From contig NC_072791.1 in NCBI RefSeq assembly GCF_028583425.1, positions 12,233,868-12,297,867 of the forward strand: 64,000 bases of DNA, given 5' to 3'. Origin of the DNA: Eublepharis macularius (Eukaryota > Chordata > Lepidosauria > Squamata > Eublepharidae). The notes under the pieces are model-generated. The model searched no databases and was not told the origin of the DNA. It saw only the letters and a program-made list of their open reading frames with translations. The translations under genes and the position numbers were made by a program. Shown here piece after piece: positions 3,250-63,750 of the stretch (position 1 is its first letter; every line of letters starts with the position of its first letter).

Positions 3250-5010
3250 GGCTGAGTTGGAAGATGGCGTGTGTTCCGCGTGACTAATTCTGGGCTTTCT
3301 TACCTTTTTATTCTCCTGGCCGGGATGCACCCCATGGAAGCCCACCCAAGCACCAGCACCCCCCATGCAGTGCCGCTCACCTTGCCCGAGGAGCCCCGAA
3401 GTTCTAATGGGCAGGAAGAAGAGTAAGTGGCTGCAGGAGAGCCCCAGCTGCCTGCAGATGCTGGACACTGGATGGGAGACACCACCACCAGCTGAGCCAC
3501 TCAATCCAGCCCTGGCAGTGACGATGCCTCCCTTGGCCTGCCCGGGCCACCCCACTGACCTCCTGTTGCTGCGCTCTGCAGTGGCCTCCCCAACCCCAGC
3601 AGCTGATGAGCCGGGTGGAAGGCAGCCACAGCCAGTGCCATTGGGCCGGGTATGGCTGGGGCAGAGAACCAAGAATGCCGAGTCACCCCCAAATGAGGTA
3701 CGGCTGGCTGGCTCAGGCAGCCATTGGGCAAGGGGGCACTGAGGTGGGCTCTGCCCTGCTGGAGCAGCAGACTGGGGTTCATATCGCCCAGTCACAGTGG
3801 GGGCTTGGGGGAGGGAGGAATGCAGCAGACTGGTGGATTGGCTGCCTTAAGGGTTGGGGGAAGCAGGGCCATAAAAGGGGCATCCCCAGAGCGGCCAAGG
3901 AAGAGTTGTCTGGCATGACTTAGGTGAGTGAGAGAGAGCAATGAAGTCACTGCACAGAGGGTAGGAGGAGACAGGTGGCGCTTCCCTTCCCATATCTGAG
4001 GCTGAGGGAAATGCCTGGGGAGGTAGGTGCACTGACCGCCTACCGTGCCAGCAGCTACCCTGCCAAGCCTGCTGGAGATGGCGGCAGGCTGGGCCTCGGA
4101 GCACTCCAGGTTATTGGTCCTGGGTGACTTCAATGTCCATGCCGATGATGCCGCCTCTATGCAGGCTTCGGATCTGGTGTCACCCAGGTGTGATCTTTGG
4201 GATGAGGATACAGGTGGACCTTGATGCCGGTGAAGCGGTGCCATGGTCAGACCACTTTGTCCTGAAGTCTTGTTTGGGAGCACCAGCCACCTCCTGCATA
4301 GGCGGCGAGCTAATTTGAGCTTGCCTGCAGAGGCTAATAGATCCAATTGGTTTCCAGGATGCTCTGCAGGATCCGATGCCCCCTGGTGGTTCATTGGATG
4401 AGCTGGTAGGGGACTGGTATGACCATCTCTCTGAAGCCATCGACGAAATCGCTCCCTGTTTCCTTCTCCATTCCCTTGCTAAATTGGCTCCCTGGTATAT
4501 GGAGGAACTACATCAGATGAAGCGAGAACTGAGACGGAATGAATGAGTGTGGTGGCAGAATTGGGGCAAAGAGACAAGATCATCTTATAGAGCATTTATG
4601 AAGTGGCTGTGAAGGTGGCAAAGAAGGATTTCTATACTGCCTCCATAGCATCTGCAAGCTCACACCTGGCAAATTTGTTTCAAGTGGTTAGGTCCTTGGT
4701 CTCCCTTTCTCAAGGAGACCGCCAAATTAAAAATTCGGCTATTAGCTGCGAGGCTTTTGGGAGTGTCTTTGCAGATAAAATTTTGTCTCTCCTCCATGAT
4801 CTGCTGGCCACAGTTGATACAGTAAGGGAACTAGAGGCCCCTTGATCATCTTCTGGCCCTTATTTAGATCACTTCAGTCTGGTGTCCCGGGAGGAAGTTG
4901 AAAGGATCCTGCAGCGGGTGAGGCCCACCACAAGCTCCCTGGACCCCTGCCCTTCGTGGCTGCTGATAGGGTTATGAAATTAGGATTGGCAAGGCTTAAT
5001 GTCTATAAAG
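3250..5010 (+). mobile_element. L2-like LINE, endonuclease and early RT remnant
   Basis: At about 4110-4270 the plus strand carries an endonuclease signature: an LGDFNVHADDAAS-like string, then downstream SDHF. Near 4860-4960 is a block like LDHFSLVSREEVERILQRVRPTTSSLDP, typical of the segment before the RT core in L2-type LINEs (quoted here only as key words: REEVERIL, SLDPCPSWLL). The reading frame is broken several times. The GC-rich stretch 3250-4080 upstream may be the 5' part of the same element, but I see no diagnostic motif there. Large ORFs in that stretch are probably chance products of base composition. Confidence 0.55.
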
Positions 5011-5577
5011 GCTGCACTGCAGTTGTGAACATCAATATATTTCCAAGCCTCCTGGAAATATATTTCCCTGCTCAGACCCCAGGCAAACTGCAAAACCCGC
5101 TGTTTCTGCAACTACCCACCGGGAGCTGCCATCCAGAGGATGAGAGGGTAATCTCATGATCTCTGTTTTGTCTAGAGAGATTATTTCAGCCAATATTCAA
5201 AGTCCCACTGCTGTTCTCGGTAGTGCTGCTCCTCCACGCAGTCAGAGACCTCAGCCTGCCATAGCTCCTCACCGGAAATCAGTAATCAAACTGTTGGTAA
5301 ATACAGTGACTGGAGCAACCTTGGTACAACCCCTCGTTCAATTCATTTTTATTATTTATTTATTTACATTATTTATAGTCTGCTTTCTCACGGAGACTCA
5401 AAATGGATTACACAGTATGGGTCATTATACTCAGTTTCAAGGCATTTCAATATGCATGTAATAAGGTATATACATGTAAATCTGCAAAGATTTAAACCTG
5501 CAGAAATCCAATACAAAGTTAAGAAATTGCTGAAACAGTGCATATATAATTCTAATACCAACATATTAAGCAATTTA

Positions 5578-7254: not shown

Positions 7255-7817
<563 letters not shown>

Positions 7818-9133
7818 TTATATGGTGTGTGGATTTGTCAATGGAGAGTTAAGGTCTGCATTCCGAGCAAAGCCCTTCCCACACTCCAGACATTTATATG
7901 GCTTCTCTCCTGTGTGGATTTGTTGATAGAGAGTAAGGTTTGCATTCCAAGCAAAGCCCTTCCCACAGTCCACACATTTGAATGGTTTCTCCCTGGTGTG
8001 GATTTGTCGATGGACAGTAAGCTGTCTACTCTGAGCAAAGGTCTTTCCACACTCCAAGCATTCATATGGTTTCTCTCCTGTATGGATTCGACGATGAACA
8101 GTAAGATATGAACTATAACCAAAGTTCTTTCCACATTCTGCACATTTAAATGGTTTCTCTCCTGTGTGAATTCGTCGATGGTCAGTAAGATGTGTATTCC
8201 GAGAAAAGCTCTTCCCACAGTCCACACATTTGTATGGTTTCTCCCCTGTGTGGATTCGTTGATGAACAGTAAACTCTGAATTATGAGCAAAGCCCTTTCC
8301 ACACTCCAAACATTTATATGGATACACCCCTAGGTGGATTCGTCGATGGGCAGTAAACCCTGATATATGAGGAAAGCTTTTTCCACAATCCAAACATGTA
8401 TATGGTTTCTCCCCTGTGTGGATTCGTCGATGGACAGTAAAGTGTGAAATTCGAGCAAAGCACTTCCCACAGTCCAAACATTTATATGGCCTCTCTCCTG
8501 TATGGATTCGTAGATGGGAAGTAAGGTCTGAATTAAGAGCAAAGCTCTTTCCACACTCCAAACATTTATATGGTTTCTCCCCTGTGTGGATTCGTCGATG
8601 ACCAATATAGTGTGAACTTTGAGCAAAGCTCTTCCCACACTCCAAACATTTATATGGTTTCTCCCCTGTGTGGCTTCGTTGATGGCCCCTAAAATGTGAA
8701 CTTTGAGCAAAGCTCTTCCCACATTCCAAACATTTATATGGTTTCTCCCCTGTGTGGATTCGTCGATGGTAACTAAGGTTGGATCTCTGAGCAAAGCTCT
8801 TCCCACACTCCACACATTTATATGGCTTCTCCCCTGTGTGGATACGTCGATGCTCAGTAAGATGTGCTTTCTGAGAAAACGTCTTCCCACACTCCACACA
8901 TTTGAATGGTTTCTCACCTGTGTGGATTCGTTGGTGGACAGTAACATCGTTGTTCTGAGCAAAGTCCTTCCCATACTCCATGAATATATATTGTTTCTCC
9001 CCTGTGTGTATTTGTTCAAGGGATGATTCATATCCCCTCTCCCATTTTGTCCCATTGCTTCTTCTCTGCTCTTCCTCTTCCAATGGGAGTTGTTGAGGCT
9101 CTCCCTCAGGCTCTCTCTGGGGTCCATCTGCCT
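7818..9133 (-). CDS. C2H2 zinc-finger exon of a SCAN/KRAB zinc-finger gene
   Basis: Terminal coding exon of a Kruppel-type DNA-binding protein, probably a nuclear transcription regulator. The exon begins after a tttattccag acceptor (AG at 9134-9135) in phase 1 and reads [15 protein letters not shown], an acidic linker, then the finger array. Finger 1 (QYIFMEYGK) has lost its cysteines. Fingers 2-12 each keep C-x2-C-x12-H-x3-H and HTGEKP-type linkers. The next finger has Tyr for its first His, and the last is cut short when the frame slips near 7850 and stops at 7818. Specificity residues (-1,2,3,6) vary between fingers: QAHE, QSNY, QSHG, QSHG, LSDS, RSHV, HSGA, HSEV, RTHD, YSYV, QRQV. The phase-1 start matches the phase-1 end of the KRAB-A exon (20968) and of every KRAB-B-like exon. 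Eleven intact fingers suggest a working DNA-binding array, with a recently shortened 3' end. No orthologue is recognised, as is usual for this fast-turnover family. Confidence 0.9.
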
Positions 9134-9294
9134 CTGGAATAAAGAGGAGACTGGTAAGACCTTCAAACAAAAGCAGAATCAAGGAAAAATGGCCATTAAT
9201 AGCTCCTGATAATAATAGAACAAAAATCACTTGAAGTGGAAACACATGCTGCCATGTATTAAATTTTGCTTATTAAGCATTCATGTTGGGTAAA

Positions 9295-10420
9295 GATCAA
9301 AAATAAGAGCTGGAAGGGATCCAAAGGGTCATCTAGTCCAGCCTCATACACAATACAGGAATTTCACAGCTAATCCCCTCTACACCACCTGTGACCCCTG
9401 CCCTATGTCCAGATAATGGGGAAAAAAACCTTCCAGGGTCCATACCCAACCTGGCCTGGAGGGAAATTCTTTCCTGGTCCCAAAGTGGCTATTAGCATTG
9501 CTCTGGAAATATGAGGAAGGACCTCAGGCGCAGAACACTGGCTCATTTCTTCCTGCTGTCCCTCTCACAATTTGCCTAAGTTCATACTGAATCATAGAAT
9601 CAGCACTGCTGAAAGATAGCAGTCTAGCCTCTGTTGAAAAATGTCCAATGAAGGGGAGCCTACCACATCCCCAGAAAGCCTGTTCCATTGAGTAACTGTT
9701 CTAACGGTCAGGAACATCTTCCTAATGTTTAGCAAACAACTTTTTTGCTTTTGTTGTTTTTGGTGTGACCCTCTGGGGCAACAGACAAAAACTCTGCTCC
9801 ATCCTCTATGTGACCTTTCAGTATCTCCTCTCCTCCAGTATTGTATCACCTTTCAGTTGTCTCCTCTCCAAGCTAGAAAAGACACACAGAGAGTCACGGT
9901 AGAACAATCCAAAGCTGAGCCAACGCTGTGACTTACTAACTAATTACATTCAAGAACAATTTAAAGCATCCAGATTCTGCATCCAGAATCCCCCTCTTCT
10001 GCTGAAGCAGTGACAATCTAAAAATGAGATAAGGTTAGTCTAGCATGACCTGCCCTTGAGGAACACAGGCTGGATCTTGGTCATCACTGCCTTCTTTCTG
10101 AAGTGCTCCAGGAGAGACTCTTTCAAGATGTGTTCTAAAACATTTCCAAGTATGGACATCAAGCTGAAAGGTCGGTGGATACCTGGATCATCCTTTCTCC
10201 CCTTATGGAAGATGGGGACAACATGTGCTGACCTTCGATCTTCTGGCACCTCACCTGTTCTCCAAGAATACTGAAAGATCTCTAAAATTACACCAGAAAA
10301 GTTCCATTAGTACCCCAGGATGCAATCTGGCCCTGGGGATATGTTTTCAGTAAAGGAAGCTAGGTGTTTCCAGATCACTCTTACACCTCCCCTAGGTGTC
10401 AACTCCCTTCCTTCATCATG
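9295..10420 (-). mobile_element. CR1 LINE fragment
   Basis: Minus-strand CR1 remnant in the last intron of the zinc-finger gene. At 10250-10040 the translation gives VVPIFHKGRKDDPGIHRP and EHILKESLLEHF, the conserved start of the CR1 RT domain. At 9849-9592 it gives LNIRKMFLTVRTVTQWNRLS, the C-terminal CR1 block. The RT core between them is missing. The 3' end near 9295 has typical CR1 text (agggtcatctagtccagcctc). Confidence 0.75.
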
Positions 10421-10559
10421 CATTCTCTTATTGCCAGGATGAGCAGTTTCCCTGGCAAGAGATGATTAAGGCAAACTAGGAGCTGAGCATTTCTGCCCTG
10501 TCTGTATCACCTGATAAAATCCCAGTCTCCAATCCCTGAAGCCAGCCGCCACTCCCAAG

Positions 10560-10760
10560 GGGACTCAGACGAACTTCTGTCTTTTCAGGCAACATCTCTC
10601 TGAATGCTGGTTGCCAGCAGGGCAAGCCCAGAAGGGGGCTTTGGCTCTGCTCCTCTGCTTGAGAATGTTCCAGGGACTCCAGCTGGCCACCCTGGGAAAC
10701 AGGAGGCAGGGCTAGATGGACCTCTGGCAGATCTCTTCCTAGAATCCAACACAGAACAGA
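10560..10760 (+). mobile_element. CR1-like 3' end fragment
   Basis: Contains 'ctgggaaacaggaggcagggctagatggacctctgg', resembling the common CR1 3' terminal text 'gaaacaggatgctgggctagatggacc'. Short ORFs here are not gene-like. The assignment rests on this phrase. Confidence 0.4.
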
Positions 10761-11073
10761 AGGACATTCTGGAACAGAGCTTTAGACGTGAACTACGGAG
10801 ACCCAAGCAGAGCTCCCTACCCAAGCAGAGCTCCCTACAGCACACTGGAGTGGTCTTGGACCAATCACTCCTCCCCAGTTTTTCCTACTTCACAGGCTTG
10901 TTGAGCGAGTAAATGGAATTCTCACCAATTCTGCCCTATATTCCTTGAAAGAAGGGCAGGATAAGAGATAAGAATTCACCAAAAAACAAGAAATAAAGGG
11001 ATGGTCCTGCTGCCCTCCCCCCAACAGATCACCTTCTCTGGACTCATCATACTCCAGGTCCTTCCAAAGAACT

Positions 11074-11326
11074 ATAATAATAATAATATTCGATTTATAT
11101 ACCGCCCTTCAGGACAACTTAATGCCCACTCAGAGCAGTTTACAAAGTATGTCATTATTATCCCCACAACAAACCACCCTGTGAGGTGGGTGGGGCTGAG
11201 AGAGCTCCAGGGAGCGGTGACTAACCCAAGGTCACCCAGCTGGCTTCAAGTGGAGGAGTGGGGAATCAAACCCGGTTCTCCAGATTAGAATCCCACTCTC
11301 TTAACCACTATACCAAACTGGCTCCC
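11074..11326 (-). mobile_element. tRNA-derived SINE, near full length
   Basis: Minus-strand copy. On the plus strand the (ataata)n tail comes first and the tRNA-like head last (B-box complement at about 11262-11276, A-box complement 'cactataccaaactggc' near 11310-11326). Same family as 29739, 31617 and 62375. About 250 bp. Confidence 0.85.
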
Positions 11327-11339
11327 TAGTCAATCAGAA

Positions 11340-11770
11340 GAAACACTTCTGGTCTAGGAGGACCAACTGGAGCAGCTACAAATCTTTCTGGTTCTAACTT
11401 TAAGGCCCTAAACGGGGCTAGATTCCTTCACGGTCTGCTTCTGGCCAGATTGTTCACCACCACCCTATTAAGCTCTTCCCCCCCAAACCCCTAAGTAGAG
11501 AGACTGATAGTTACCAGAGACGGGGCATTTACAGTGGTAGCTCCTCCCTTCTACAAGCTTGCCAGGAGAACTACTTTATCTTTCTCACACCTAGTGAAAA
11601 TTATTCATTTCAACTAGGCTTTGAACTAAAAGGTTTTTCATTCTGAGGTATTCTTTAGTCTGATTCTCTCCTGAAGAATGTTCTGATCCTAGTTTAAATT
11701 TTGTTATTGGTAATTCATGTTATGTTACCTAGAGTGTCATGTAAATAAATAAACAAACATTGAATACAAC
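11340..11770 (+). mobile_element. L2-like LINE C-terminal and 3' tail
   Basis: Plus-strand 3' end of the L2-like LINE. It shows degenerate coding text for the C-terminal block (around 11400-11660: 'agtggtagctcctcccttctacaagcttgcc...') followed by a non-coding tail ending in taaataaataaac near 11755. No open frame. Confidence 0.45.
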
Positions 11771-11973
11771 TGGATAGTGAATACAGATTTCCTCCAAGAT
11801 TAGCCACCAATAAGCCTACATTTTGTAATCTGTTTTAACCATTTGAGAAAGCTTTCCTATCTACTCTTGGCTGTTTCCACATAAAAATGTCTCTGTACTT
11901 CAATGAATGAATGTTAGCCAAATCTATCTGGATACACCAGAAAAAGATTTGCGCTACACAAGGAGGTTCATAC

Positions 11974-13253
11974 CTGCTGATCCCTCTCTTTTGCCTGGGT
12001 CATGGAAAAATGGATTTCCATTTCCTTGCATGAAGTCACGTCCTGGAAGCAGAAACCCTCCTTTTGGGAAAGGAAACAGAAAAAATACTGCATGAGAGGG
12101 GAGGTGGCTATTGCTTGGATCCAGAATTATCTTTCAGCTGATCCCGCTGGTGGTCCAGAGCAGAGGATACACCAGAAAAAGATTTGCACTACACAAGGAG
12201 GTTCATACCTTCTGATCCCTCTCTTTTGTCTGGGTCATGGAAAAATGGATTTCCATTTCCTTGCATGAAGTCACGTCCTGGAAGCAGAAACCCTCCTTTT
12301 GGGAAAGGAAACAGAAAAAATACTGCATGAGAGGGGAGGTGGCTATTGCTTGGATCCAGAATTATCTTTCAGCTGATCCCGCTGGTGGTCCAGAGCAGAG
12401 GATACACCAGAAAAAGATTTGCACTACACAAGGAGGTTCATACCTGCTGATCCCTCTCTTTTGTCTGGGTCATGGAAAAATGGATTTCCATTTCCTTGCA
12501 TGAAGTCACGTCCTGGAAGCAGAAACCCTCCTTTTGGGAAAGGAAACAGAAAAAATACTGCATGAGAGGGGAGGTGGCTAGTGCTTGGATCCAGAATTAT
12601 CTTTCAGCTGATCCCGCTGGTGGTCCAGAGCAGCGGATACACCAAAAAAAGATTTGCACTACACAAGGAGGTTCATACCTTCTGATCCCTCTCTTTTGTC
12701 TGGGTCATGGAAAAATGGATTTCCATTTCCTTGCATGAAGTCACGTCCTGGAAGCAGAAACCCTCCTTTTGGGAAAGGAAACAGAAAAAATACTGCATGA
12801 GAGGGGAGGTGGCTATTGCTTGGATCCAGAATTATCTTTCAGTTGATCCCACTGGTGGTCCAGAGCAGAGGATACACCAGAAAAAGATTTGCACTACGCA
12901 AGGAGGTTCATACCTGCTGATCCCTCTCTTTTGTCTGGGTCATGGAAAAATGGATTTCCATTTCCTTGCATGAAGGAGAAACAGTCACGTCCAGGAAGCA
13001 GAAACCCTCCTTTTGGGAAAGGAAACAGAAAAAATACTGCATGAGAGGGGAGGAGGCTAGTGCTTGGATCCAGAATTATCTTTCAGTTGATCCCACTGGT
13101 GGTCCAGAGCAGAGGATACACCAGAAAAAGATTTGCACTATACAAGGAGGTTCATACCTGCTGATCCCTCTCTTTTGTCTGGGTCATGGAAAAATGGATT
13201 TCCATTTCCTTTCATGAAGGAAAAACAGTCACGTCCAGGAACCAGAAATCCTC
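11974..13253 (-). CDS. KRAB-B-like candidate exons 2-7 of the array
   Basis: Six further copies in transcription order: 13253-13158 and 13009-12914 (96 nt each), then 12765-12679, 12530-12444, 12295-12209 and 12060-11974 (87 nt each). The copies are nearly identical, and the differences leave each frame open. The only length change is 9 nt, a whole number of codons. I infer that the 96-nt type is ancestral and that the shorter type was amplified after the deletion. Use in mature mRNA is unproven. An alternative is that only one copy, or none, is spliced and the array is an intronic minisatellite that captured an old exon. Confidence 0.5.
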
Positions 13254-13256
13254 CTT

Positions 13257-14084
13257 TTGGGAAACAGAAAAAATACATTAGTGGATCGTGCAAGACGGAT
13301 ATGTGAGCCGCTCTTTCTCAATGAGGAAATTAATCATCTAAACCACGCACTTCAGGCAAATGGCTACTCCAGAAATGAAATCCGAAGAGCAATCAAACCC
13401 AGGATGAATCAAACAACCAAGGAAAAACAGTCTCCTACAGGAAAAGTGTTTTTGCCATATATCAAAGGAATTACTGATCAGATGGGAAAGCTTATGAAAA
13501 AGCATAACCTTCAAGCAGTATTCAGACCCACCCGAAAAATACAACAGATGCTACGATCAGCAAAAGACAATAGAGACCCCCTCACCTCTGCAGGAGTATA
13601 CCGTATACCCTGCAGCTGTGGACAAGTTTACATCGGGACCACAAAGCGTAGCATCCAGACAAGAATAAAAGAACATGAAAGACACTGCAGACTTGGACAA
13701 CCTGAAAAATCAGCAGTGGCTGAACATAGCCTAACGCAAACAGGGCACAGTATCTTATTCCAGGACACCAAAATACTGGACAACACTTCCAACTACTTTG
13801 TCAGACTGCTCAGGGAAGCCATTGAAATTCACAAGCATAAGCAAAACTTCAACAGGAAAGAAGAAACCTTAAGAATGAACAGAGCATGGTTTCCAGTTCT
13901 GAAAAACACCAGGCTAACAAAACATTCTATCCCTGACAATAGCCCTGCAGAGAAGATTAGCACATCAAGTACCAATCCATATGCAAAAGAACCTCCTCAG
14001 GATACAGTGAAGCCTCCCGCCATTAGCATTCCACACCCTGGGAAACTCTTACAGGATGACTCAGCTCAACCCCACCCCTCCTGA
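13257..14084 (+). CDS. Penelope-like element C-terminal fragment, GIY-YIG endonuclease
   Basis: This open frame starts in flanking array sequence; the element's own part begins at about 13277 with LVDRARRICEPLF. Residues about 7-100 are the RT C-terminal extension. About 115-200 are the GIY-YIG nuclease: the GVY and YIG strands, the Arg and Glu helix (TRIKEHERH) and a Cys pair in PCSCG typical of vertebrate Penelope elements. The tail after about 215 is Pro/Ser-rich. The RT itself is missing, so the copy cannot move by itself. It is not a host gene. Confidence 0.8.
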   Translation: MGNRKNTLVDRARRICEPLFLNEEINHLNHALQANGYSRNEIRRAIKPRMNQTTKEKQSPTGKVFLPYIKGITDQMGKLMKKHNLQAVFRPTRKIQQMLRSAKDNRDPLTSAGVYRIPCSCGQVYIGTTKRSIQTRIKEHERHCRLGQPEKSAVAEHSLTQTGHSILFQDTKILDNTSNYFVRLLREAIEIHKHKQNFNRKEETLRMNRAWFPVLKNTRLTKHSIPDNSPAEKISTSSTNPYAKEPPQDTVKPPAISIPHPGKLLQDDSAQPHPS

Positions 14085-14280
14085 GTAGATACAAATGACC
14101 TACATCTTTTCCACACTGTGACACTGAGAGATCTCTGTCTTTTGGTGCTACACCTCTGAAGATGCCAGCCACAGCTGCTAGCGAAACGTCAGGAACTACA
14201 ATGCCAAGACCACGGCAATACAGCCCGGAAAACCCACAACAACCATCGTTCTCCGGCCGTGAAAGCCTTCGACAATACAT
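13277..14280 (+). mobile_element. 5'-truncated Penelope-like element with GIY-YIG ORF
   Basis: A 1-kb insert splits one unit of the tandem array. The 11-bp duplication agaaaaaatac lies on both sides (13266-13276 and 14281-14291). The element is cut off just after the reverse-transcriptase end. It keeps an open C-terminal frame (about 13276-14084) with a GIY-YIG endonuclease: GVYRIPCSCGQVYIG, then TRIKEHERHC and AVAEH. The 3' non-coding part (about 14085-14280) includes a hammerhead ribozyme. Penelope-like elements insert by target-primed reverse transcription using this endonuclease. The open frame and exact duplication suggest a recent insertion, after the array had expanded. Confidence 0.9.
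14146..14201 (+). ncRNA. Hammerhead ribozyme of the Penelope element
   Basis: The core is CTGAAGA (fits CUGANGA), then stem II tgccagc...gctagcg (one mismatch), then GAAA, then the palindrome ACGT followed by C (cleavage after GUC). Stem I pairs cct before the core with agg after it. Stem III is too short for a stable monomer; the ACGT palindrome suits the dimeric fold described for Penelope hammerheads. Self-cleavage is predicted, not shown. Confidence 0.7.
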
Positions 14281-14411
14281 AGAAAAAATACTGCATGAGA
14301 GGGGAGGAGGCTAGTGCTTGGATCCAGAATTATCTTTCAGTTGATCCCGCTGGTGGTCCAGAGCAGAGGATACACCAGAAAAAGATTTGCACTACGCAAG
14401 GAGGTTCATAC

Positions 14412-14507
14412 CTGCTGATCCCTCTCTTTCGTCTGGGTCATGGAAAAATGGATTTCCATTTCCTTGCATGAAGGAGAAACAGTCACGTCCAGGAACCAGA
14501 AACCCTC
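14412..14507 (-). CDS. KRAB-B-like candidate exon, 5'-most copy (96 nt)
   Basis: The copy nearest the KRAB-A exon and one of three 96-nt forms. AG acceptor on the minus strand just above 14507; donor GTATGAACC just below 14412. In phase 1 it reads a GFLVPGRD start and ends ...GSA plus one base. Its 32-residue span equals a usual KRAB B-box exon. It lies alone to the right of the Penelope insert; the other six lie to the left. Confidence 0.5.
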
Positions 14508-15712
14508 CTTTTGGGAAAGGAAACAGAAAAAATACTGCATGAGAGGGGAGGAGGCTAGTGCATGGATCCAGAATGATCTATCAGTTGATCCCGCTGGTGG
14601 TCCAGAGCAGAGGAGGGAGCAGGGCACTCCAGCACAGGGCAAGGAAGCCCTAGCCCAGACAGAGTAACCATGGCCCAGGATCTCAGCCACTTCCAACGAC
14701 ATGCAGGATCCAACATTCCATTCTGACACCATCTAAGGTGGCCCTGAGGAAAGTCCATTAAGGACTCCTCTCCCTTTTAAGAGACCCCGTACTCCTTGTA
14801 AGGTGAGGAAAAGGTGTTGATCAATCCGTAAAACCTTGAATTCCTAAAGATCTGATCATTCTTTAAAAAAAACTTTTTATTTAATTTTCTAAATATTTTA
14901 TAAACAACAAATTAATCAACATACAATAACAAGTCATAATTCAATTTCCATTGGAGTATTGAAGAAGTAGAGAGTTGGACTACTAAGTGCTAGTAAAATA
15001 CAAAATCTGTGTAACTTTTTGGGAAAAGAAATATAAGATGATGCATAATTAGTCACATAATCAAAAAATGGAAACTATTTTTCCAAAAAACAGGATTGAA
15101 AATTGGTGTTATCATTCATTATTAACTGTTCAGACATCTTATACATTACCATAACATCCCACATTTTTTGTATCCACTGTGTGAGTGAGGGAACTTTATC
15201 AGATTTCCAGCTCTGCTCTATTAAAGATTTAGCTGCATATAATAATAATGTGATTAAATTTCTCCTCAGTGGTGGAACCGAACAGGTGTTCGAAAGGTTT
15301 AATGAAATTTTCTGGATTAAGTGGTATGATGTATCCTGTTATTTTTGCAATATCGTCTACAGTCTTACTCCAGTAGCTATGTATTTTGCAGCAGATTCAC
15401 CAACAGTGGATAAAAGTGCCATTCTCCTTACAACCTTTCTAGCATTTAGGGTTATTGTTGAACTTATAGTGATATAAATGGCATTAAATAACATCTGTTT
15501 ACTATTTTAAAGGTTTGTAATCTAATATTTAGTGACTTAGATTACTAAAGACCTGATGACCAAATTGAACTCCAATCGTCACTGAATTCTTTTTTTTCTA
15601 TATTTCTATATTTCTATATTTTCTATATTTTTTACGATCCATATTTCATGCTTTTTGTTGTAATGTAGTTATTGACAGTCATTATTTACAAATGGATAAA
15701 TAAATCATATTA

Positions 15713-15835
15713 TCAGGGCTTTTTTTCAGTGGGAGCTCCCAGAATCTGAGATCCGGCACCTCTGAAAAAAGATCATGTGACTGGTGGCAGCAAGGACTTC
15801 CTCTGGTGTAATAGGCTGGACCATGAATTCCAAAT
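15713..15835. mobile_element. hAT-type MITE fragment
   Basis: Starts cagggctttttttcagtggg, like the left end of the complete element at 20137. It continues with family-like text (cacctctgaaaaaagatcatgtgactggtgg). The right end is not clear, so this is probably a partial copy. Confidence 0.5.
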
Positions 15836-17099
15836 GATCTTGGGAGAGTTTTGGAGTGAATTTTGTTGTTTTAAGATATTTTATTATATTTTTTCATCAA
15901 GGGTGCCTGATTGGTAAAGGTTTTGGTAGTAATCACTGAAAGTTTGGACAATATCCTTCATGGCTGTAATAGATTTTCCCTGAGAGTTTTTTAGCTGATG
16001 TATCATATTGGATGATACCCTGTGTTTGGCTGTCCTGTGGAGCCAATGGGCAGCACTGGGTGTTTTCATTAAGAATGACCATTTCAAGAATTGTAGGTTT
16101 TGTTGGATTTTTGATGATTTTAGTACTTCCAAATTTTTGCGTACAAGGTTTAGTTTTTTTTAGCGTTTTGTTTCCACCAAATCTCATGTGTCTCTTTTCC
16201 AAATTAGAAAATTTTAAGGGCTAATATTAGTTTCTGCCTTTCAGATTTGTATGCAGTAGCTAATGAGATAAATTTCCCTCTAGGAACAGCTTTAAAGGCA
16301 TCCCATCCCATCCCACTGTCATTATTCAACTCAAAATAGGTTTCAATTTCTTTAGCTAATGTAGAACAAATGCCTTGCTTCTGAAGCAAAAGTTTATTCA
16401 TTGACCATTTAGGTCCCTTCCCATTTGATATCTTATTTGTGATAAGACATGATACCGAAGAGTGATCTGACCAATTACTGCTACCTATGGCAGATGAATA
16501 AACTTGTGGTAGTAGAGTTTTGGTAACCAGAAGAAAATCTATACGGGTGTAAATTTTGTGCACATCAGAAAAATATGTAAATTCCTTAATCCCTGGGTTC
16601 ATAGATCGCCAGACATCTTCAAGACTAAAGGAGTCGAATATTCTCTTCAGCTTTGATGTCTCCTCTCTTTTCCTTTTTGAATTGTTTTTTATGAGTTTTG
16701 TCTAAGGATGAGTCAATTATATAATTAAGATCTCCCCCAATCAGAACATTCCCCTTCTAAAATTGGTTCCTCTAGGGTGTTTTTTAGGAAATTAAGTTGA
16801 TCATTGTTTGGTGCATAGATTGATGCTAAAGTTAGAGGGGAGCCATCTAACAAATAGGAAGCAACTTTTTGGGCCTGCTAAGATTTCTACGTTGTGAAAC
16901 GGTGGATTTTTAACAATAAGTGCTGCTACCCCTCTAGCCTTAGTGGTTCCAGGGGCTTGGAAAGAATAAGAAAACCAGTTTGAGTTTAATACGTTCTTAA
17001 CTTGATTTTTACAATGCGTTTTCTGTAAAAACACAAAATGAGGGCATGCCTTACTCAGCTGATTTGAGATTCTTTTTCATTTTATTGGGTTGCTAAGCC

Positions 17100-18300
17100 C
17101 TCTGCAGTCCCAGGTTACTGCTTTCCATGGTGTTGCCATGCTGTTTGATATTGCACTTTTTTGTTTGTTTTTGTTTAATGGTTTGGATTCTTAACTTCGG
17201 ATAGTTAAATTACAAACTAAGGCTAACAGCTATACTATTACCTATTCAACTAACTTCTCTACTAACCTAACTAAAAACAAAATTAAAGAAAAAACTACTC
17301 TTTTCGTATAAGCTGAACTAACTAGACTACAAGGCTTATTCTAACATACTATAAAATACCTACTTTAACTTTCATTTATTAACTAGCCCTCTAAGGAGGG
17401 CTGAAAAAAAAACAGGGCCCTAACTTTAACCTAAGGGCACAGGGATCTTAAAACTCTTACCCTTATAATTTGAAACAGTATACTACTAACTATTACCTGA
17501 CAACTTTCTAAGTGGGGAAGTAGTAGAAAATAATTTGCTTTAACTACCCCTCCCCTTCTCCTCCTAGATCTCCCCCCCCTTTTTTTACACCAGTTTTATT
17601 AACAAAGTTATTGAAGTATCAGAATATTTACACTCCCACTGGGTTAATAAAAAGCAATATCTATTGTTAAAACTGTTGTCCAGATTTGCCTAAATTACTG
17701 TCTAGTTCCTATAAGGGGATGCAGATGAGAAAGTAAAAAACAAAATACTAACTTTAAAACTTCAAACTCTCTGCTATTTTCAAAGAACACCCAAACTTAT
17801 TACCCCAATATTAGGGTAAGTACCTCAAGGCCCAGAGTAATTTTGGGGCTCAGGGAGAATATCTCAATTCCTCCATGATCTGGGATTGCTTAACTGGAGG
17901 GGGGGAATGAGTGGTGAAATTTGGTATGCTCCGAATCCCCCTCCCCCTCTCCTGTTATTCTTATGAGCTTATATAGACTCATAATTTCTCATGACGCACT
18001 TACAAGAGATATAGATTTTAACTATATACATTTAAAGAATCATGCAGATAAGTTCAAGAATTTAGAGATATTTTTATCTTGAGTCTTGCTGTTGCTGTTC
18101 ATCTTCTGTCTTCAAGTGAAGTTTTAACGTCAACAAGAGTTCCTTCCCTGAAGCTAAATCACTTGCCTGGAGTGCATAACCTTCATATATTATGATATTG
18201 GATGAAGGGCTCCACTTAAATATGATGCTGGCTTGTATTCATGTGGCAGAGATTGGTTTAAGGATTCTTCTTTTCTCCAATATTTCTGGAGGGTGATCCA
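17100..18300. other. A/T-rich intronic stretch within L1 territory
   Basis: No gene. The part nearest 17100 is the start of L1 ORF2. The rest (about 17150-18060) is A/T-rich with no motif I can name and may be the L1 inter-ORF region plus unrelated sequence. 18060-18300 leads into the C-terminal end of ORF1 on the minus strand. Confidence 0.35.
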
Positions 18301-18823
18301 AAAGTACTAGAATTTTTTTTCGTTATACGTCAGAGCCCCTTTAAGTCTTGCCTCTCTTAGAATGCGTTCTTTGGTTTTTGGGTACAGGAACTGAACCAAT
18401 ATATCCCTTGGTCTGTTTGCACAGACTGTGGCTATAGGGCCTACATGAAATGCCCTTACAATGACTGGACTCCCTCCTCTAATTGCAATACACTTGCCAG
18501 CCATTTAGACATAAAAACAGCCCAATTAGAGTTACCTTCTTTGTGTTCTGGAATTCCTCTTATTTTCAGATTATTCTGTCTTGATTTGCTTTCCAATGCT
18601 TCTAATCTCCCCTCCATAGCTGTTTCACTTGATTAGAGAGTTTTAATTTCATCCTGAAGAGTCATTCCCAATTCAAGAGTAGTTTCTGCAGCTTGAGTGG
18701 CTCCTTTCAAGATATCTGTTAGTTCTTTTATTTGACTGTGGGTTGGTTTTAAAAGTTCAGTTACTGTTTTGAGAAGAAGTTCTGTAGGTCATCTTTAAAG
18801 GCTTATAATGTTGCTTTTTAGCA

Positions 18824-19354
18824 CAGGGGTGGGGAATGTCTAGCCATCCCGCAGTCATTTGGACTGGCCCGCAGAGAGAGACGAGCGGCAGTGCTGTGGG
18901 CAAACACAGCAGGCAGATTCCCCCGATCCCACCCTTCCCCCTCGCTCCCACTTACCCACTTGGCGGGGGACACGCTCCCGCACCTCGAGAGCAGGAGGTG
19001 GTAGTGGTGAAAGCAGGCCGCTCTTGCTGCTGTTGCCACCTGCTGCTGCCAGCGCTGCCTGCTGCTGCCGCTGCTGCTACCAAGAGCAACCTGCAGCGCT
19101 GGCGAAAGTGGCCTGTGCCGCCATGGGGAGAGTAAATGGCGGTGGCGACAGTGGGGGGTGCTGGCAACAGAGCTGCTGCTGCTGCCGCCACCGCCACTGC
19201 AAGCGGGCCGCAGAGGTGGCACCAGGGAGAAAGGAGACACAAGCGCCCTTTCTCCTGCATGCGTAATGTCACATGCGTGGGGAAAAAGGACGCTGCCCAT
19301 GCAGGACAGAACATAAACTTGGCCCTCGGCGGAAAAAAAGGTTCCCCACCCCTG
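18824..19354. mobile_element. hAT-type MITE with GC-rich core
   Basis: Terminal inverted repeats caggggtggggaa and ttccccacccctg. The flanking 8-mers ttttagca (18816-18823) and ctttagca (19355-19362) make a near-perfect 8-bp target duplication, the hAT signature. The core is rich in CTG/CCG triplets, which creates ORFs in several frames on both strands; I regard these as composition artefacts. It is inserted in the ORF1 region of the minus-strand L1. Confidence 0.8.
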
Positions 19355-20136
19355 CTTTAGCAGATAGGAGCCTCTCTATTTTTGGCAGGCTTTCCCCTGG
19401 CAGCCGTTTTGGTTCCACTTGCTTGCGTTATTGAAGTTATTATTGCCTCTATTGTCAAAAAGGTCTCCATTGTTACTGAATTTTTTGAAGCTGATTTGGC
19501 TTTTGTTGCTGAAAATTTTCCCATTTCAGGTAGGTGTTTTTAGCTCAGAATTGTGCAGATTTTCTAGTTAGAGAAGGAGAGGTTTTCAGAGCTCTGCAAT
19601 CTGTTTGGAATGTTGTTTATCCCAACCGTCCTTGAGGGGGCTCATAACAGGATATCCTCCAGCCTAGCACCTTTCTGAATGGATGGGCTCTGGATTTTCA
19701 TAGCAGCTTGACACACAAGAATTCTTTGTGACACAAGCCAAAACTTCACCTGCTCAAATCCAGGTTTTCATGGTTTGTTCTTCAAGGCTCAGACACACTC
19801 TTTCCTGCAAGGGTCGACATGCCACAGCCTAAACTAGTAGTATAAAATAACACCCTTCTATAGATTTAGGAACACACAACACAAAGTTTAATTGTAATTG
19901 TGTTAAATGTCTAATATTTATGTCTAATACATAAATATGGATGTACAGACAGATATATGGCCACGAAAAATAATACAAAATATACAGAACTTATTCTCTC
20001 CAAAATATCAATTTTCAATTTTTGTATGGATGAAAACATGACCAACGCACATCCGCTATTGCCATGTGTTTCAGTCCCTTCATCAGAATCACATTTCACA
20101 AGTTGCTGTGTAACAAATAACATCATCATCTAGAAC

Positions 20137-20394
20137 CAGGGCTTTTTTTCAGCTGGAGCATGGTGGAACGGAGTTCCGGAACCTCTTGAAAATGGTCACA
20201 TGCCTGGTGGCCCCGCCCCCTGATCTCCAGACAGAGGGGAGTTTAGATTGCCCTCTGCGCCACCAGCAACACAGAGGGCAATCTAAACTCCCCTCTGTCT
20301 GGAGATCAGGGGGCGGAGCCACCAGCCATGTGACTATTTTCTCTGAGGGCAACCCACTGAGTTCCACCACCTCTTTTCCCAGAAAAAAGCCCTA
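20137..20394. mobile_element. hAT-type MITE, complete, 8-bp TSD
   Basis: 258 bp, bounded by cagggcttttttt and aaaaaagccct, and flanked by the perfect 8-bp duplication tctagaac (20129-20136 and 20395-20402). The centre is a long near-perfect inverted repeat (ctccagacagaggggag and its complement around 20225-20305). It is non-coding. The perfect duplication suggests a fairly young insertion. Confidence 0.9.
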
Positions 20395-20469
20395 TCTAGA
20401 ACAATGTTCTTTACATACATATATTGGTTGAGTGCTGCTATTTTATATGTTTTTAAAATATTTATATTG

Positions 20470-20620
20470 GACTGGTTGTTATTGTCATTTTAAACTATTT
20501 TAAAGTGTAAATTATATTGTCATGTTTTATCTGAGTGTAATCCGCCCTGAAGCTGCCAGTGTGGGGAGGGCGGAATAAAAATCGAAAACAAACATACAAA
20601 CAAATATACAAAAACGACAT
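20470..20620 (+). mobile_element. LINE 3' end fragment
   Basis: The text 'gtgtaatccgccctgaagctgccagtgtggggagggcgg' and then an A-rich end is the common L2/CR1-type 3' terminus. The same phrase appears at 52500-52580. Confidence 0.5.
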
Positions 20621-20967
20621 TTTTTTAAGATAACACACCCTACACGTAGCAAACCAATTACTTCTTAGCCTGCTTGTAAATGTTTGTTATTTAAAATGCT
20701 GGATTCTTTGGCTGCTCTGAAAAGCACATGAGGATGCCCTGTTGACATCCCATGTAGTGTTCCTCTTAGTTTACAAACCAATATTTTAGCTTACACACTA
20801 ATATTTGGGAAGTCCACTAGATATGAAGAAGTCTCTCATTTGCCTGTGTGTGGAACCGCCTCACTACCTATTCAGAGTTTCTATTGGAAGGGCTCTACGA
20901 GAACCCTTCTTAGACGGAGTGATTTCTGCCTCCAGCTTCTGTGAATTGAGGGAGAAGGGACCCTTAC

Positions 20968-21094
20968 CCAGAGAGGCCACATTCTGAAAATTCTCCTCCA
21001 TGACTTCCTTGTGAAGGCTTCTTTTTTCCGCATCAAGTAGAGCCCACTCCTCCTCAGTGAAATGAACAGACACCTCCTCGAAGGTCACTGGACC
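20968..21094 (-). CDS. KRAB-A box exon of the zinc-finger gene
   Basis: The exon is exactly 127 nt, the usual KRAB-A exon length. A pyrimidine-rich acceptor (tttttctcttttcag) precedes 21094 and a GTAAGG donor follows 20968. It starts in phase 0 with GPVTFEEVSVHFTEEEW and continues LLDAEKRSLHKEVMEEN to NVASL, ending with one extra base (phase 1). Conserved KRAB positions are V-T-F-E, F-x-x-E-E-W and the EVMEEN block (mammalian consensus DVMLEN). KRAB-A recruits the corepressor TRIM28 in mammals; whether the reptile form does is not established here. The phase-1 end joins directly to the zinc-finger exon or to any KRAB-B-like exon of the array. Confidence 0.92.
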
Positions 21095-21164
21095 CTGAAA
21101 AGAGAAAAAAAAAAGCAACCTCTCTATCTTATCAGATACTGAAACAGATTCTGTATCCTCTCAG

Positions 21165-22545
21165 ATACTGTTTATTTTTATTTATTTATGACATTTTTAG
21201 TCTGCCTTTCTCAAGGCGGATTACATAGTACGAGATTAGTACAATCAGTAAAAAGTACATTTTAATACAGTATCAAGGACATTTCCATAAACAATGCCAT
21301 AGGATAGATAAAGGTTTAAAAGACATAGTATTAGCAAGAATCCAATACAGAGTAGAATACTGAAGGAGAAAATAATCAATTCTATGACTAACATTAGACA
21401 ACATGGAGCACTGGTGGTACGTAGGAGTACATATTTAAAGCAGCAGATAATATTTAAGGCAAAAATAGTGATGAAGTCTATGATCCCCAACTCATTAGTG
21501 AAGCATCTGAGACCCCATCCCTACAATACAGCCCTCCCATTTGAGTAAAAAGCCTTTTTGAATAGTTCGGTTTTGTATCGTTTATGAAAAGCCAGGAGAG
21601 TGGGGGCTCTTCTGACTTCCTCAGGCAGGTCATTCCACGGGATAGGGGGCACCACAGAGAAAGCCCATGTATGAGCTGCTGCTGACTTCACCTGTGTGCA
21701 GCCCGGCACCTGCAGGAGACCCTGTTCAGATGAGCGAAGCTGCTGTGGAGGAACATAGGGAGGGGGGCGGTCCCGTAAGTATGCCGGACCAAAGCCGTGA
21801 AGAACTTTTTATGTAATAACTAATACCTTGAACTGAGCACGGTAAGCGATGGGTAGTGGAGCGACTGTAGGATGGGAGTGATGTTCATGCTCCTGCTTGC
21901 TCCTGATAACAGTCGAGCTGCAGCATTTTGCACTAATTAGAGCCTCTTAGTTAACTTAGATGGGAGACCTATGTATAGAGCATTACAATAGTCAAGCCTC
22001 GACGTTACCATAGCATGGATCCAAGTGGCCAGGTCAGCCGTGTCAAGATAAGAAGCCATCTTCCAGGCTAGAGTGAGGTTGTAAAAAGCATTTTTTGCTG
22101 TCGCCTTTACTTGTTTTTCTAATAATAACGCTGGATCCAGTATAACTCATAGGCTCCTAACCAAGTCTGCAAGGGTCAGACGAACGCCATCAAAAGTGGG
22201 GAGTACAACGTCCTTCAAGATCTCAGCCTCACAAACAATCATCACACACTTGTCTGTGTTCAATTTTAATTTGTTATTTTTCAGTCATTTCACTACAGCT
22301 GTCAGGCAGTGATCTAAGATTTCAGCTGCATCCTGTGGGGACCTGGATAGAGAGATATAGAGCTGGGTGTCATCTGCATATTGATGGCATCCACCTCCAT
22401 TGCTGCGAATGAGTTCTCCTAAAGGCTTTACATGGACATTGAATAACATGGGAGATAAGACTGAGCCCTGCAGAACCCTGCAAGATTGTTCCCATTCTGG
22501 AGATAGTTGATCTCCAACGGCAATCTTCCCCTTATGAGGGCCAGC
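21165..22545 (-). mobile_element. L2-like LINE, 3' portion
   Basis: Minus strand, 5'-truncated. At 22480-22285 the translation reads QGSVLSPMLFNVHVKPLGE and YADDTQLYISLS, the RT catalytic block in the L2 style. At 21709-21521 the C-terminal block reads VVPPIPWNDLPEEVRRAP. The 3' tail ends at the tttatttatttatgac run near 21165. It lies in the intron between the SCAN and KRAB exons. The frame is not continuous. Confidence 0.8.
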
Positions 22546-22549
22546 CAAA

Positions 22550-24150
22550 AGAAGTATACTTAGAAGCTTGCTTGCAGGATTCAAAGTTCCATCAGACCTT
22601 TCTGTTTTCCTTCTAGTGAATGTCCCAGATAGCAACCAAGGCAAAGAGAGTGAGGGGTTCTTTCTGGGCTGAGGAGGGGTGGGGGGTGCATGCTGGCACC
22701 CGGGGTCATGATTGGCAGTTCCACACTTACCTGCTCTGGCCACACGGAAGTTTCTTTCTCCCTGCTGCAAAGATACGGCAAAGGTTTTGTTGTTGGTTTC
22801 AAGGCCTCGCCTGGAAGGATCAAAAGATAATTGGAAGACATTCAAATCCTTTCCGCTATTTAGCATTGCAGTTCCTTGAGTGGGAAACAGAGAATCTCTT
22901 GGCTCATGGTCACAACTACCCTCGCTTCCTTACATAGTATAATCGTTTGATTCCAGACATTTTCAAAACCCAGTCTTGCTAAGAATTATCATAGACAAAT
23001 ATAGGCCTGATTCTCCAATGGTACAGAATTCACAAGATGAAGAAGGAAGAACTCTGAAATGAAAGGTAGAAGCAACTCTGAACCCACTGATAGAATCGCA
23101 GCTACCAAACTCAAGAATCTCTGCACGTGGGCAAGATATGGAAAAAGGCAGGCTTGCTATTGGTGAAATAACACTTCCCACGTCACTGGGTGGTGCTTCT
23201 TCTGGTCATCTCCCAGTGCAGGTCATCCACCAGGGCGACCAAGGCTGTTTTAGTCACATGACCCAGACACAAAAGGATCTAACCAATTGCAGTTCTCCAG
23301 CCACTGCCTATTCAGTCACCTCACTTAAGAAAGGGATATTTCAGACTTTCCAGTTAAGATGCCCTGGGTCCTTTGTAGACTTCTTTAGACAAGGCGCAAC
23401 ACAATCCATTTTGAGGCAGGGGTGACCTCCCCCTTGCTCAAGGAGGCATTTCCTCCCTTTCAGAGTAAGTCAGACAGGCCCACCCTGGCTGATTACATTA
23501 GCCAGGAAGGCCATATAAGTAAGTCATAGCCCTCAAGACCCCAAGGGGGGTCCGCAGCCTCAGACTGAATGCACTGAAAAATTCCCCAAACAGCCCAACG
23601 AGTCTCCACCCGGCATCATCTGACCCTGTCTCTGCTAATGCAGAGCCCAAGTCAGAACTGAGTCAGTGCTGAGCAAAATGGCTACAACGGACCACTGAGG
23701 CCTCGACTTCCTCCTCCCTCCAGAACCCAACAGGCCTCTGACCACCCAGATGAGCTCCATTGGCCTAAACGGTGCAGACGCAAGGGCGGCTTAGAAGTGA
23801 TCTTTGCTACCATCACTTTAAAGTGAGTTTTTGCCGTCTCCCGTGCCGTATCCCTTGTCTTTTCATCTCTGGAGCCCCTCAGCAAACCAAGCTGCTGTCT
23901 CATGTCGCCTAGGAGCAGATGTGTCAATTCCCCAGGTCATTTTTTCTTTCCAGCCAGGGTATAGACAGAAGCGCCAACTATATCAGCAGGAAAATCTACC
24001 AGTCCTATCTGAACATCAGTCGCATCGATCAGGCTGTGGAGGCAGATCACCTTAAATGATCCCCCTCCACTACACACTCCTGTAATCTTAAATCCAAGCA
24101 AGAAGTGACTTGTCTATGGGAATGGGACTGTTTTTAGTCCCTCCATCCTT
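22550..24150. other. Intronic sequence, mostly unassigned
   Basis: Apparently single-copy DNA in the intron between the SCAN and KRAB-A exons. A short minus-strand block at 22741-22774 has an AG before it and GTAAGTG after it (34 nt), but its phase does not link the SCAN and KRAB frames. I see no protein motif and do not call it an exon. Confidence 0.4.
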
Positions 24151-24153
24151 CTA

Positions 24154-24769
24154 GGATTGCCAGGGACCTGGAGTCCCTTGTCGGGAGATGCCCAGGTCCC
24201 CGGACTCTCCCATGGGGGATTGCGAGCCACTTACTCTCGGGTCTTCTTTATGAGTGTGCTCCTGGCTTGTGTGATGATGTCACTTCCGGGAGTGACAGCA
24301 TCACATGAAGGTCAAAAGGTGCCCCTTGGGTCAAAGGGTGCCCTTTCCTCGCTGGTGCAGGCTGCTTTCACTGCGGCCGTGACCTGCTTTTGCCGCCACT
24401 GCTTGCACCCAACTCTTGTTGGGTGCAAGGGGGCGGCAGCGAGACCAGGTGGTGGTGGTGGCATGAGCAGGCCTGCTTTCACTGCCACCACTGTGGCCCA
24501 CTCTTGTTGGGTGCAAAGGGGTGGCAACAGTAAGAGCGGGCGGCGGCAAGAGCAGGCGGCGGCTGTGGCGAGAGCAGGCTCGCTCTCACTGCTGCCGCCG
24601 CCTGCTCTCGCAGTGCATAAGCGCCCCCCTCACCCAGGGGCAAGCTGTGCCACCAGGGAAGGACGCGCCCCAGGGAGTGTGCCCCCTGCCGGCTAAGTAA
24701 GTGAGCATGGGGGGGAAGGATGGGGTTGGGGGATCCCCCGCACTGGGCGGGGGAATGGGAACCCTACAC
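24154..24769. mobile_element. TIR element of the GGGTTGCC family with GC-rich core
   Basis: The left end ctaggattgccaggg and right end gggaaccctac are degenerate forms of the ends seen at 29582, 40214 and 63753. The core has direct and inverted pieces around 'ttgcacccaactcttgttgggtgcaa' (perfect short palindrome at about 24404-24429, partly repeated at 24500) and CTG/GGT-rich text. Non-coding; ORFs across it are composition-driven. Confidence 0.45.
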
Positions 24770-25465
24770 CCTTCACATCACCTTCCTCCTGCACAGAGCA
24801 AAACCCCACATCAAGAGTGTGTCCGGGGCAGGAAACGGGGCCTGCTATTACTGGAGACAGGCCTATGGTTATCATGGAGGCCTAAAATCCTGAACTGAAG
24901 CCTCTGCAAGGATGTTGAACTCCGCAAGAATGACGGTTACTGTGGCATGAGATCTCCTCAAGGCTTATTGGCCCCACACACTATCTTCCCAATTTTAAAC
25001 ATTAATTTACATAAATTGTCATTTCTTTGCATTCAGAGCAAGCTTTGTTCTCAACGCCCTGATGACACCAGAGGTGAGGTGGACCGGAAGAGTTTTTGTC
25101 ATATTTTCTTCCATGCACTTATGACTTTATCATGATAAAAACATAAATCCCTCTCATTTTTCTTTATCCGCAACCACAAACCTATTGGCACTTTTACCAA
25201 GTAATTACTCAACTGGTTAACCATATTACCCTTGCACAATTATAATATAATTGTAAATAAGGTATGGACTAAACCACTATTCTTCCAATTAGTTTGCACT
25301 GATTTTAAATTGATTCTCGGTTTTTGCTTCCCCAAATTGATATTTCTAAAGTGAGAAGCTCAGGTGAGCATCTTTCCCACCCCAGACTGATGTTGGGGGA
25401 ATAAAAGAAGCCCACCTAAACTCAAAGAGGCCATTGAGTGGGTAGGACAGCCCTTTTGATCTTAC

Positions 25466-25508
25466 CTGGAAAAGCTGTTCCGTGGCAAAAGGTGATCCTT
25501 TCTTGCAC
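25466..25508 (-). CDS. Candidate 43-nt exon after SCAN (uncertain)
   Basis: On the minus strand the block has an AG in front (ctttttcag) and a GTAAGATC donor behind. Joined in phase 0 after the SCAN exon it reads VQERITFCHGTAFP plus one base. The phase-1 end does not fit the phase-0 start of the KRAB-A exon, so a further exon or an alternative join would be needed. The residues VQ..ITF vaguely resemble a KRAB start, so it could be a decayed duplicate KRAB exon. Confidence 0.3.
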
Positions 25509-25670
25509 CTGAAAAAGAAGTGGGGATCCCACAAAGGGGAAACTGTTGAGAAAGGGAACAGGAAAAAGGTGAGGGGGGGGGGCTAAAAAATTTGGGGCCA
25601 TCTGTATGGATTTTGAGGGCATCCCTGATCATTCTCTATCCCCACATACTACCTAGAGGAATCCCCCTTA

Positions 25671-26168
25671 CCTCCTGGTCTGGATTCTTGTCCTCTGCAT
25701 GGCTCAGGAGGAACCCTTCTGCCAGGGCCACTGCCTGGGAACTGGTCTCCGGTCCACATTCCCTGACCCAGCTCTCCATCTCTGGGGGCAGGATGGCCAG
25801 GAACTGGTCCAGGATCACCAGGTCCAGGATCTCCTTCTTGCTGTGCCTTTCTGGCTTCAACCATTGGAGGCAAAGGTGGTGGAGGTCACTGCAGACCTTT
25901 CGGGGCCCTTCAGCCTCCTGGTAACGGAAGTGCCGGAATTGCTGGCGCTGCACATCTGAAGGGGGAAAATCCTCTCCCAGGCTCTTCTGCAAGGTTCCTT
26001 CCCACACTTCCCTTCTGCTCCCAGCCTCTGTGGCAATAGGGCTTTTTCGTACTTCTGGCTCTCCCCTCATCCTCCCTTCGTCTCCAAACAGCCTCCACCC
26101 GGGCCAGTGGATCACCTTCCTCCTCTGTCAGATTCTTCTACCAAGGCAGGTGCTGGATTTATGACCTC
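25671..26168 (-). CDS. SCAN-domain exon of the zinc-finger gene
   Basis: Encodes a SCAN box, a leucine-rich dimerisation domain of vertebrate zinc-finger proteins. The acceptor ctctttgcag lies at 26169-26170. The domain spans about 26010-25700: [17 protein letters not shown], then [39 protein letters not shown] and [12 protein letters not shown], all matching the SCAN pattern. The donor GTAAGG follows PDQE at 25671 in phase 0. All three frames contain a stop close to the acceptor, and the SCAN frame is first open from about 26130 with an ATG at 26070. Either translation starts inside this exon or the 5' part has a frameshift. The upstream half of the usual reptile SCAN-gene N-terminus is not seen. 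Confidence 0.85.
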
Positions 26169-26189
26169 CTGCAAAGAGAAGACTGATCT

Positions 26190-35040: not shown

Positions 35041-63750
<28,710 letters not shown>

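Follow-up and report, generated by a model that had tools for sequence, protein, structure and literature searches.

Seven blocks between KRAB-A and the fingers

KRAB zinc-finger genes evolve fast in the number and sequence of their fingers. Can the exon for an effector domain itself be multiplied within such a gene, and what would follow for the protein? We address this at a 64,000-nt stretch of the Eublepharis macularius genome (NC_072791.1:12,233,868-12,297,867), called the window here, with positions counted from its first letter. An earlier note had described in it seven tandem, in-frame blocks resembling the KRAB-B exon, inside a SCAN/KRAB zinc-finger gene. Indeed, seven blocks span 14507-11974 on the minus strand, between the KRAB-A exon and the finger exon, and all seven have a pyrimidine tract, an AG acceptor and a GT donor exactly where the note had placed them. 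We consider it likely that the array is a tandem exon duplication with at least the potential for inclusion of several copies.

Taking each block from the first base after AAAAG to the last base before GT, we found an open frame in phase 1 in 7/7 blocks, all of them running from phase 1 to phase 1. The acceptor reads ...ttcccaaaag/GAG after the pyrimidine tract in every unit, and the donor CAG/gtatga in five units and AAG/gtatga in two. Tandem Repeats Finder (TRF) gave a repeat period of 235/244 bp with units 96% matching; this and the block limits (87/96 nt) agree with the sizes in the earlier note. TRF counted 5.5 contiguous copies because an insertion interrupts unit 2. Blocks 1 and 2 are separated by an intron of 1158 bp; the next five introns are 148 bp each. 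The two exon lengths differ by a 9-nt deletion (residues CFS) common to units 4-7. The note had held these 9 nt to be the only size change and had missed the insertion of about 1004 bp.

The acceptor consists of AAG and GAG in tandem, 3 nt apart, so the exons could be 93/84 or 96/87 nt, in frame both ways. Among related loci elsewhere in the genome, L024-L027 have the downstream AG only and L034 the upstream AG only. The KRAB-A exon ends in phase 1 (at 20968) and the finger exon starts at 9133 in the matching phase. Because each exon is symmetric (phase 1 to 1, a multiple of 3) and has both splice sites, between 0 and 7 boxes could be spliced in without a frameshift. A computed splice bore out the phase match proposed earlier: joining KRAB-A, 0, 1 or 7 blocks and the finger exon kept the frame (first 120 and 150 residues inspected for the products with 0 and 1 blocks). 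Judged by its sequence, the array appears splice-competent, and the protein may vary in KRAB-B copy number.

Coordinates of the array units, the insertion and the other exons of the gene in the window.
Feature	Position	Strand	Details
Array unit 1, 244 bp	14368..14611	-	KRAB-B exon 14507-14412, 96 nt
Array unit 2, split by insertion	13114..14367	-	KRAB-B exon 13253-13158, 96 nt
Array unit 3, 244 bp	12870..13113	-	KRAB-B exon 13009-12914, 96 nt
Array unit 4, 235 bp, 9-nt deletion	12635..12869	-	KRAB-B exon 12765-12679, 87 nt
Array unit 5, 235 bp, 9-nt deletion	12400..12634	-	KRAB-B exon 12530-12444, 87 nt
Array unit 6, 235 bp, 9-nt deletion	12165..12399	-	KRAB-B exon 12295-12209, 87 nt
Array unit 7, 235 bp, 9-nt deletion	11930..12164	-	KRAB-B exon 12060-11974, 87 nt
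Penelope-like retroelement fragment, ~1004 bp, GIY-YIG-type frame	13277..14280	+	Within unit 2
SCAN-domain exon region	25672..26127	-	Pfam PF02023, E 4.1e-38
KRAB-A exon, 127 nt, phase 0 to phase 1	20968..21094	-	PDB KRAB matches, E 6.4e-9, 3e-8, 1.5e-6
Zinc-finger exon, 11 canonical C2H2 fingers in frame, stop near 7820	7820..9133	-

Related loci carry a single copy

Searching the 2.24-Gb genome at the DNA level with a single unit as query gave 29 scored matches, which is a lower bound. Of these at least 29 matches, the array itself accounts for seven; the other 22 are dispersed, and none of them comes nearer than 13.8 kb to a neighbor where they share a contig. We opened 18 of the 22 dispersed loci as 10-kb stretches, selected for similarity to an array block. 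Exactly one KRAB-B exon was found at E < 1e-3 in 17 of them; the eighteenth, L038, has a KRAB-B exon that is 57 nt shorter and in frame. As the loci were chosen by their match to the array block, "at least one" is built in, and the findings are that there is only one and that it has KRAB-A and fingers for neighbors. KRAB-A lies within the stretch at 17/18 loci (truncated by the stretch end at L032), and for the remaining one, L026, a KRAB-A is listed about 7 kb upstream. C2H2 fingers are present in 14/18 loci, SCAN in 10/18, and KRAB-A together with fingers in 13/18; the opened stretches are short, so absences of domains say little.

The array gene belongs to a large SCAN/KRAB zinc-finger cluster. 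Genome-wide, 150 of 754 candidate KRAB-A places were listed and the number of KRAB-B exons was counted at the opened loci; further KRAB-B arrays may exist, the count resting on the 22 dispersed matches and 18 opened loci.

The single KRAB-B exons of the paralogs are not all intact. L021 has lost 2 nt and with them the frame, L036 is without GT at the usual donor, and L028 and L033 are shorter by 9 and 6 nt, respectively. The in-frame deletions of L028 (near 4963-5049; 9 nt), L033 (near 4950-5036; 6 nt) and units 4-7 (9 nt) each fall at a different position within the KRAB-B exon. On contig C2, three equal 43-bp matches lie within 13.64-13.72 Mb (at 13642078, 13682067 and 13717358), one of them being L038. 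This suggests a recent gene duplication.

Identity of the blocks

To identify the blocks, we built a profile from 14 paralog KRAB-B exons, excluding the array and four paralog exons: L021 lacks 2 nt, L033 lacks 6 nt close to where it begins, L036 is altered at its 3′ end, and L038 is missing 57 nt. It matched 7/7 blocks at E 1.3e-16 to 2.4e-9, while the runner-up in a six-frame scan of the whole window had E 0.4. In bits, the seven blocks scored 33-57, compared with 7.3 for the next match in the window and 9.4 for the best of three shuffled windows. For the four 87-nt blocks, the match is chiefly to profile positions 12-32. Aligned with the human ZNF93 KRAB-A+B chain (PDB 7z36), the 75-residue query is matched as far as residue 62, in a span that begins in KRAB-A and continues into the block. 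A profile search of the 32-residue block, which the earlier note had proposed, was successful with the profile made from paralogs but not with Pfam, where the 32-aa block alone had no match at E <= 1. Unit 1 departs at eight residues from the consensus of eight cluster paralogs, GLLVPRPDCISLMQGNGNPFFQDPEERERSA.

Each block is a separate exon-like segment after KRAB-A in phase 1 to 1, as is a KRAB-B exon, and resembles the single KRAB-B exon of the paralogs in sequence, splice signals and place after KRAB-A; the difference is one copy there and seven here. We also considered whether the gene has an ordinary KRAB-B exon outside the array, and rejected this: scanning 9133-26200 with a loose pattern, and the whole window in six frames with the profile, returned the array only. 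Homology in context, namely the profile matches, the homologous single exon at 17/18 loci and the ZNF93 alignment, supports the blocks as KRAB-B exons, as had been proposed.

Origin of the array

In a phylogenetic tree that included 15 of the 18 loci, the array units form one clade with an ultrafast bootstrap of 100, and the multiplication therefore took place inside the array gene. A separate alignment covered 14 sequences from paralogs and 2 from the array. Monophyly and the single copy at 17/18 paralog loci are what a tandem exon duplication leaves behind. We then compared the flanks with 8 of the 18 loci. The left flank (about 14845-14401) is collinear with the paralogs in 8/8; on the right, collinearity extends to about 11331 in 4/8 and is shorter in the rest. 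Every unit aligns to one common paralog segment of about 206-254 bp, unit 2 in two pieces. We rejected a satellite or random repeat on the evidence of the dispersed matches, the KRAB-A/finger context, the collinear flanks and the monophyly of the array. Like arrays away from zinc-finger genes, which the earlier note had named as the mark of an ordinary satellite, were not seen among the 22 dispersed matches, 18 of them opened.

At five of six unit borders the sequence is GTATCC/TCTGCTCTGG, and the sixth has one base different. TCC is common to the single-copy flanks at this border (left CTCC/TCTGC, right ATCC/AGATAG). We propose that tandem duplication started from this 3-bp TCC microhomology, with a 244-bp segment holding one KRAB-B exon and its splice signals, and that unequal exchange probably raised the copies to seven. 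The 9-nt in-frame exon deletion would have arisen during the expansion and is now in four copies. Of these four, units 4 and 6 share the ending AGAAG, and units 5 and 7 the ending AGCAG; a later two-unit duplication (units 4-5 and 6-7) is likely. The origin of the array is most likely fairly recent.

The insertion in unit 2 lies immediately upstream of the pyrimidine tract and is flanked by an 11-bp direct repeat, GTATTTTTTCT. We take its frame to be that of a Penelope-like element with a GIY-YIG endonuclease; Pfam gave a weak T5orf172 match (E 0.12). The acceptor of unit 2 is intact after the insertion, and the pyrimidine tract is kept, 5 nt shorter. The insertion puts CACTAATG upstream of this acceptor and brings CACTAAT, a branch-point-like string. 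Stretches related to the insertion are present in L024 and L028, between KRAB-A and KRAB-B, among the eight loci compared. In the window itself, a fragment near 42370-42917 resembles it.

Divergence among the copies and selection

Several observations count against the explanation that we favor. Exon divergence, 31/1284 sites (2.4%), is close to that of the introns, 67/2160 (3.1%), in pooled pairs of 6/7 units (unit 2 omitted, exon border one base off), so the kept frame may reflect youth and not selection. By codon reading of the translations, 5/8 exon substitutions are amino-acid changes. The ancestor of the array had also lost the KPD/RPD proline (CCT to CGT) relative to the consensus of eight paralogs. 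The ratio of nonsynonymous to synonymous changes (dN/dS) among the copies, which the earlier note had suggested determining, is 0.52 by the pooled Nei-Gojobori method; with eight exon substitutions and one 9-nt deletion, the changes are too few for a verdict on selection. Evidence for selection on the array copies is weak, and the functional weight that the earlier note had implied finds no support in the substitution pattern.

We then examined the cluster. For KRAB-B, pooled dN/dS is 1.69 among eight C2-cluster paralogs (8 of the 14 paralog exons, from loci among L022-L034) and 1.03 for unit 1 against the same eight, single pairs ranging from 0.63 to 1.47. For KRAB-A it is 0.27 among seven cluster genes and 0.25 for the array gene against six paralogs. 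These values are rough: pooled pairs reuse branches, the 31 codons offer few synonymous sites, and KRAB-B was computed on a different set (8 members) from KRAB-A (7). KRAB-B seems to evolve almost freely or to diversify in the C2 cluster, while KRAB-A is held.

This pattern is one reason to take seriously a splicing-inert, minisatellite-like expansion, in which splicing normally uses a single copy, or none at all, and the additional copies are neutral passengers. The similar divergence of exon and intron fits it, as do a KRAB-B that is weakly constrained or unconstrained (1.69 and 1.03, compared with 0.27 for KRAB-A) and the damaged KRAB-B exons of L021 and L036. On the other hand, both splice sites and the frame are kept in 7/7 copies, where the sole exonic length change is 9 nt, and we see no reason for the spliceosome to skip near-identical exons with 148-nt introns. 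Given the few changes among the copies, the kept sites and frame are not a strong test. We give this explanation a chance somewhat short of even. Our assessment of it overlaps with that of a duplication capable of multi-copy inclusion: anatomy and origin are common to both, they differ only on splicing, and the two estimates are not exclusive.

The same KRAB-A values bear on whether the gene is dead, a decaying paralog in which the array is without consequence. SCAN, KRAB-A and the C2H2 fingers stand in order on one strand, which is the SCAN/KRAB/C2H2 layout as read from the sequence. The SCAN frame is open from 26127, and its last exon base, 25672, is followed by GTAAGG (a sequence assignment for the 3′ border only). 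Finger sequence continues to about 7300 (7300-7820, minus strand), beyond the stop near 7820 and partly in another frame; given this, the finger array seems shortened. Such finger remains and the 1-kb retroelement fragment inside the array would suit a dead gene. Yet SCAN, KRAB-A and 11 canonical fingers are open, the KRAB-A protein is identical to that of four other loci over 43 residues, and KRAB-A dN/dS against the six paralogs is low, which together make a dead gene unlikely.

Comparison with known systems

Our searches of the open-licence literature, which lacks most subscription journals, gave proteins with two KRAB domains but no KRAB-B array, and multiplication of an effector-domain exon itself was not met there; the earlier note had likewise called the case unusual and known of none described. 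In coding minisatellites and in zinc-finger expansions within an exon, copy number changes by unequal exchange. The array differs from these in that its repeat unit is a whole exon plus its own intron sequence. ZNF274 and mouse ZFP568 are reported to have two KRAB domains, and ZNF274 also SCAN (PMC11397430, PMC5033580). They are like the array gene in carrying more than one KRAB module per zinc-finger protein. In ZNF274, SCAN is reported to lie between two KRAB motifs, whereas here the B exon only is repeated, seven in a row.

Duplicated exons also adjoin in Drosophila Dscam, whose arrays are reportedly spliced in a mutually exclusive way, and tandem exon arrays are reported as a substrate for this mode of splicing (PMC1397879, PMC6071210). 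The array could, in principle, be such a cassette, giving one B box of the seven per transcript. However, the units here are nearly identical in protein (two length forms and five substituted positions), so a choice among them would add little, and any copy number is in frame, so no frameshift enforces exclusivity. We regard a Dscam-type cassette as very improbable.

What the array may mean for the repressor

If the exons are spliced as their signals predict, the transcript would contain anything from 0 to 7 KRAB-B boxes, placed after KRAB-A and before the fingers, with no frameshift. KRAB-A would recruit KAP1/TRIM28, the B boxes would form a disordered accessory segment, and the protein would presumably still repress. 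The number of B boxes would alter the length of the linker and perhaps KAP1 binding, modestly. The KRAB-KAP1 crystal study reports KRAB-B as accessory and disordered (PMC9753469), and a swap study reports that exchanging KRAB-B alters repression and TRIM28 binding (PMC3912051). On whether KRAB-B strengthens KAP1/TRIM28-dependent repression, the literature, which concerns other KRAB-B boxes, is divided. A KRAB-B that appears free to change while KRAB-A is held fits an accessory role for B, and this may explain why the array is tolerated. Most likely, the functional effect of the array so far is modest or none.

A bolder idea is that alternative splicing and copy-number alleles yield a graded set of KRAB repressors carrying from 1 to 7 B boxes, the number of boxes being a quantitative dial for KAP1 recruitment or for the spacing between KRAB-A and the fingers. 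We think this improbable. If true, repressor strength would evolve by exon number. The array provides a natural series for studying the B box, whose role is poorly understood, with many B exons in one gene and single-copy paralogs as controls.

Other observations in the window

A search of the whole window with Rfam gave no match at the gathering threshold. When residues 30-250 of the spliced product were compared with a protein database, 7998 candidates were scored and none reached E <= 1, in a collection that we take to be without such vertebrate proteins. Another repeat lies on the plus strand at 55969-56259, where a 97-bp unit is present three times, each copy with a pyrimidine tract, a CAG acceptor and the initial part of an exon. 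No donor was seen in the unit, and the last copy continues into a longer open stretch. By its sequence, this repeat, whose 97-bp length is not divisible by 3, resembles a 3′ splice site that has been triplicated.

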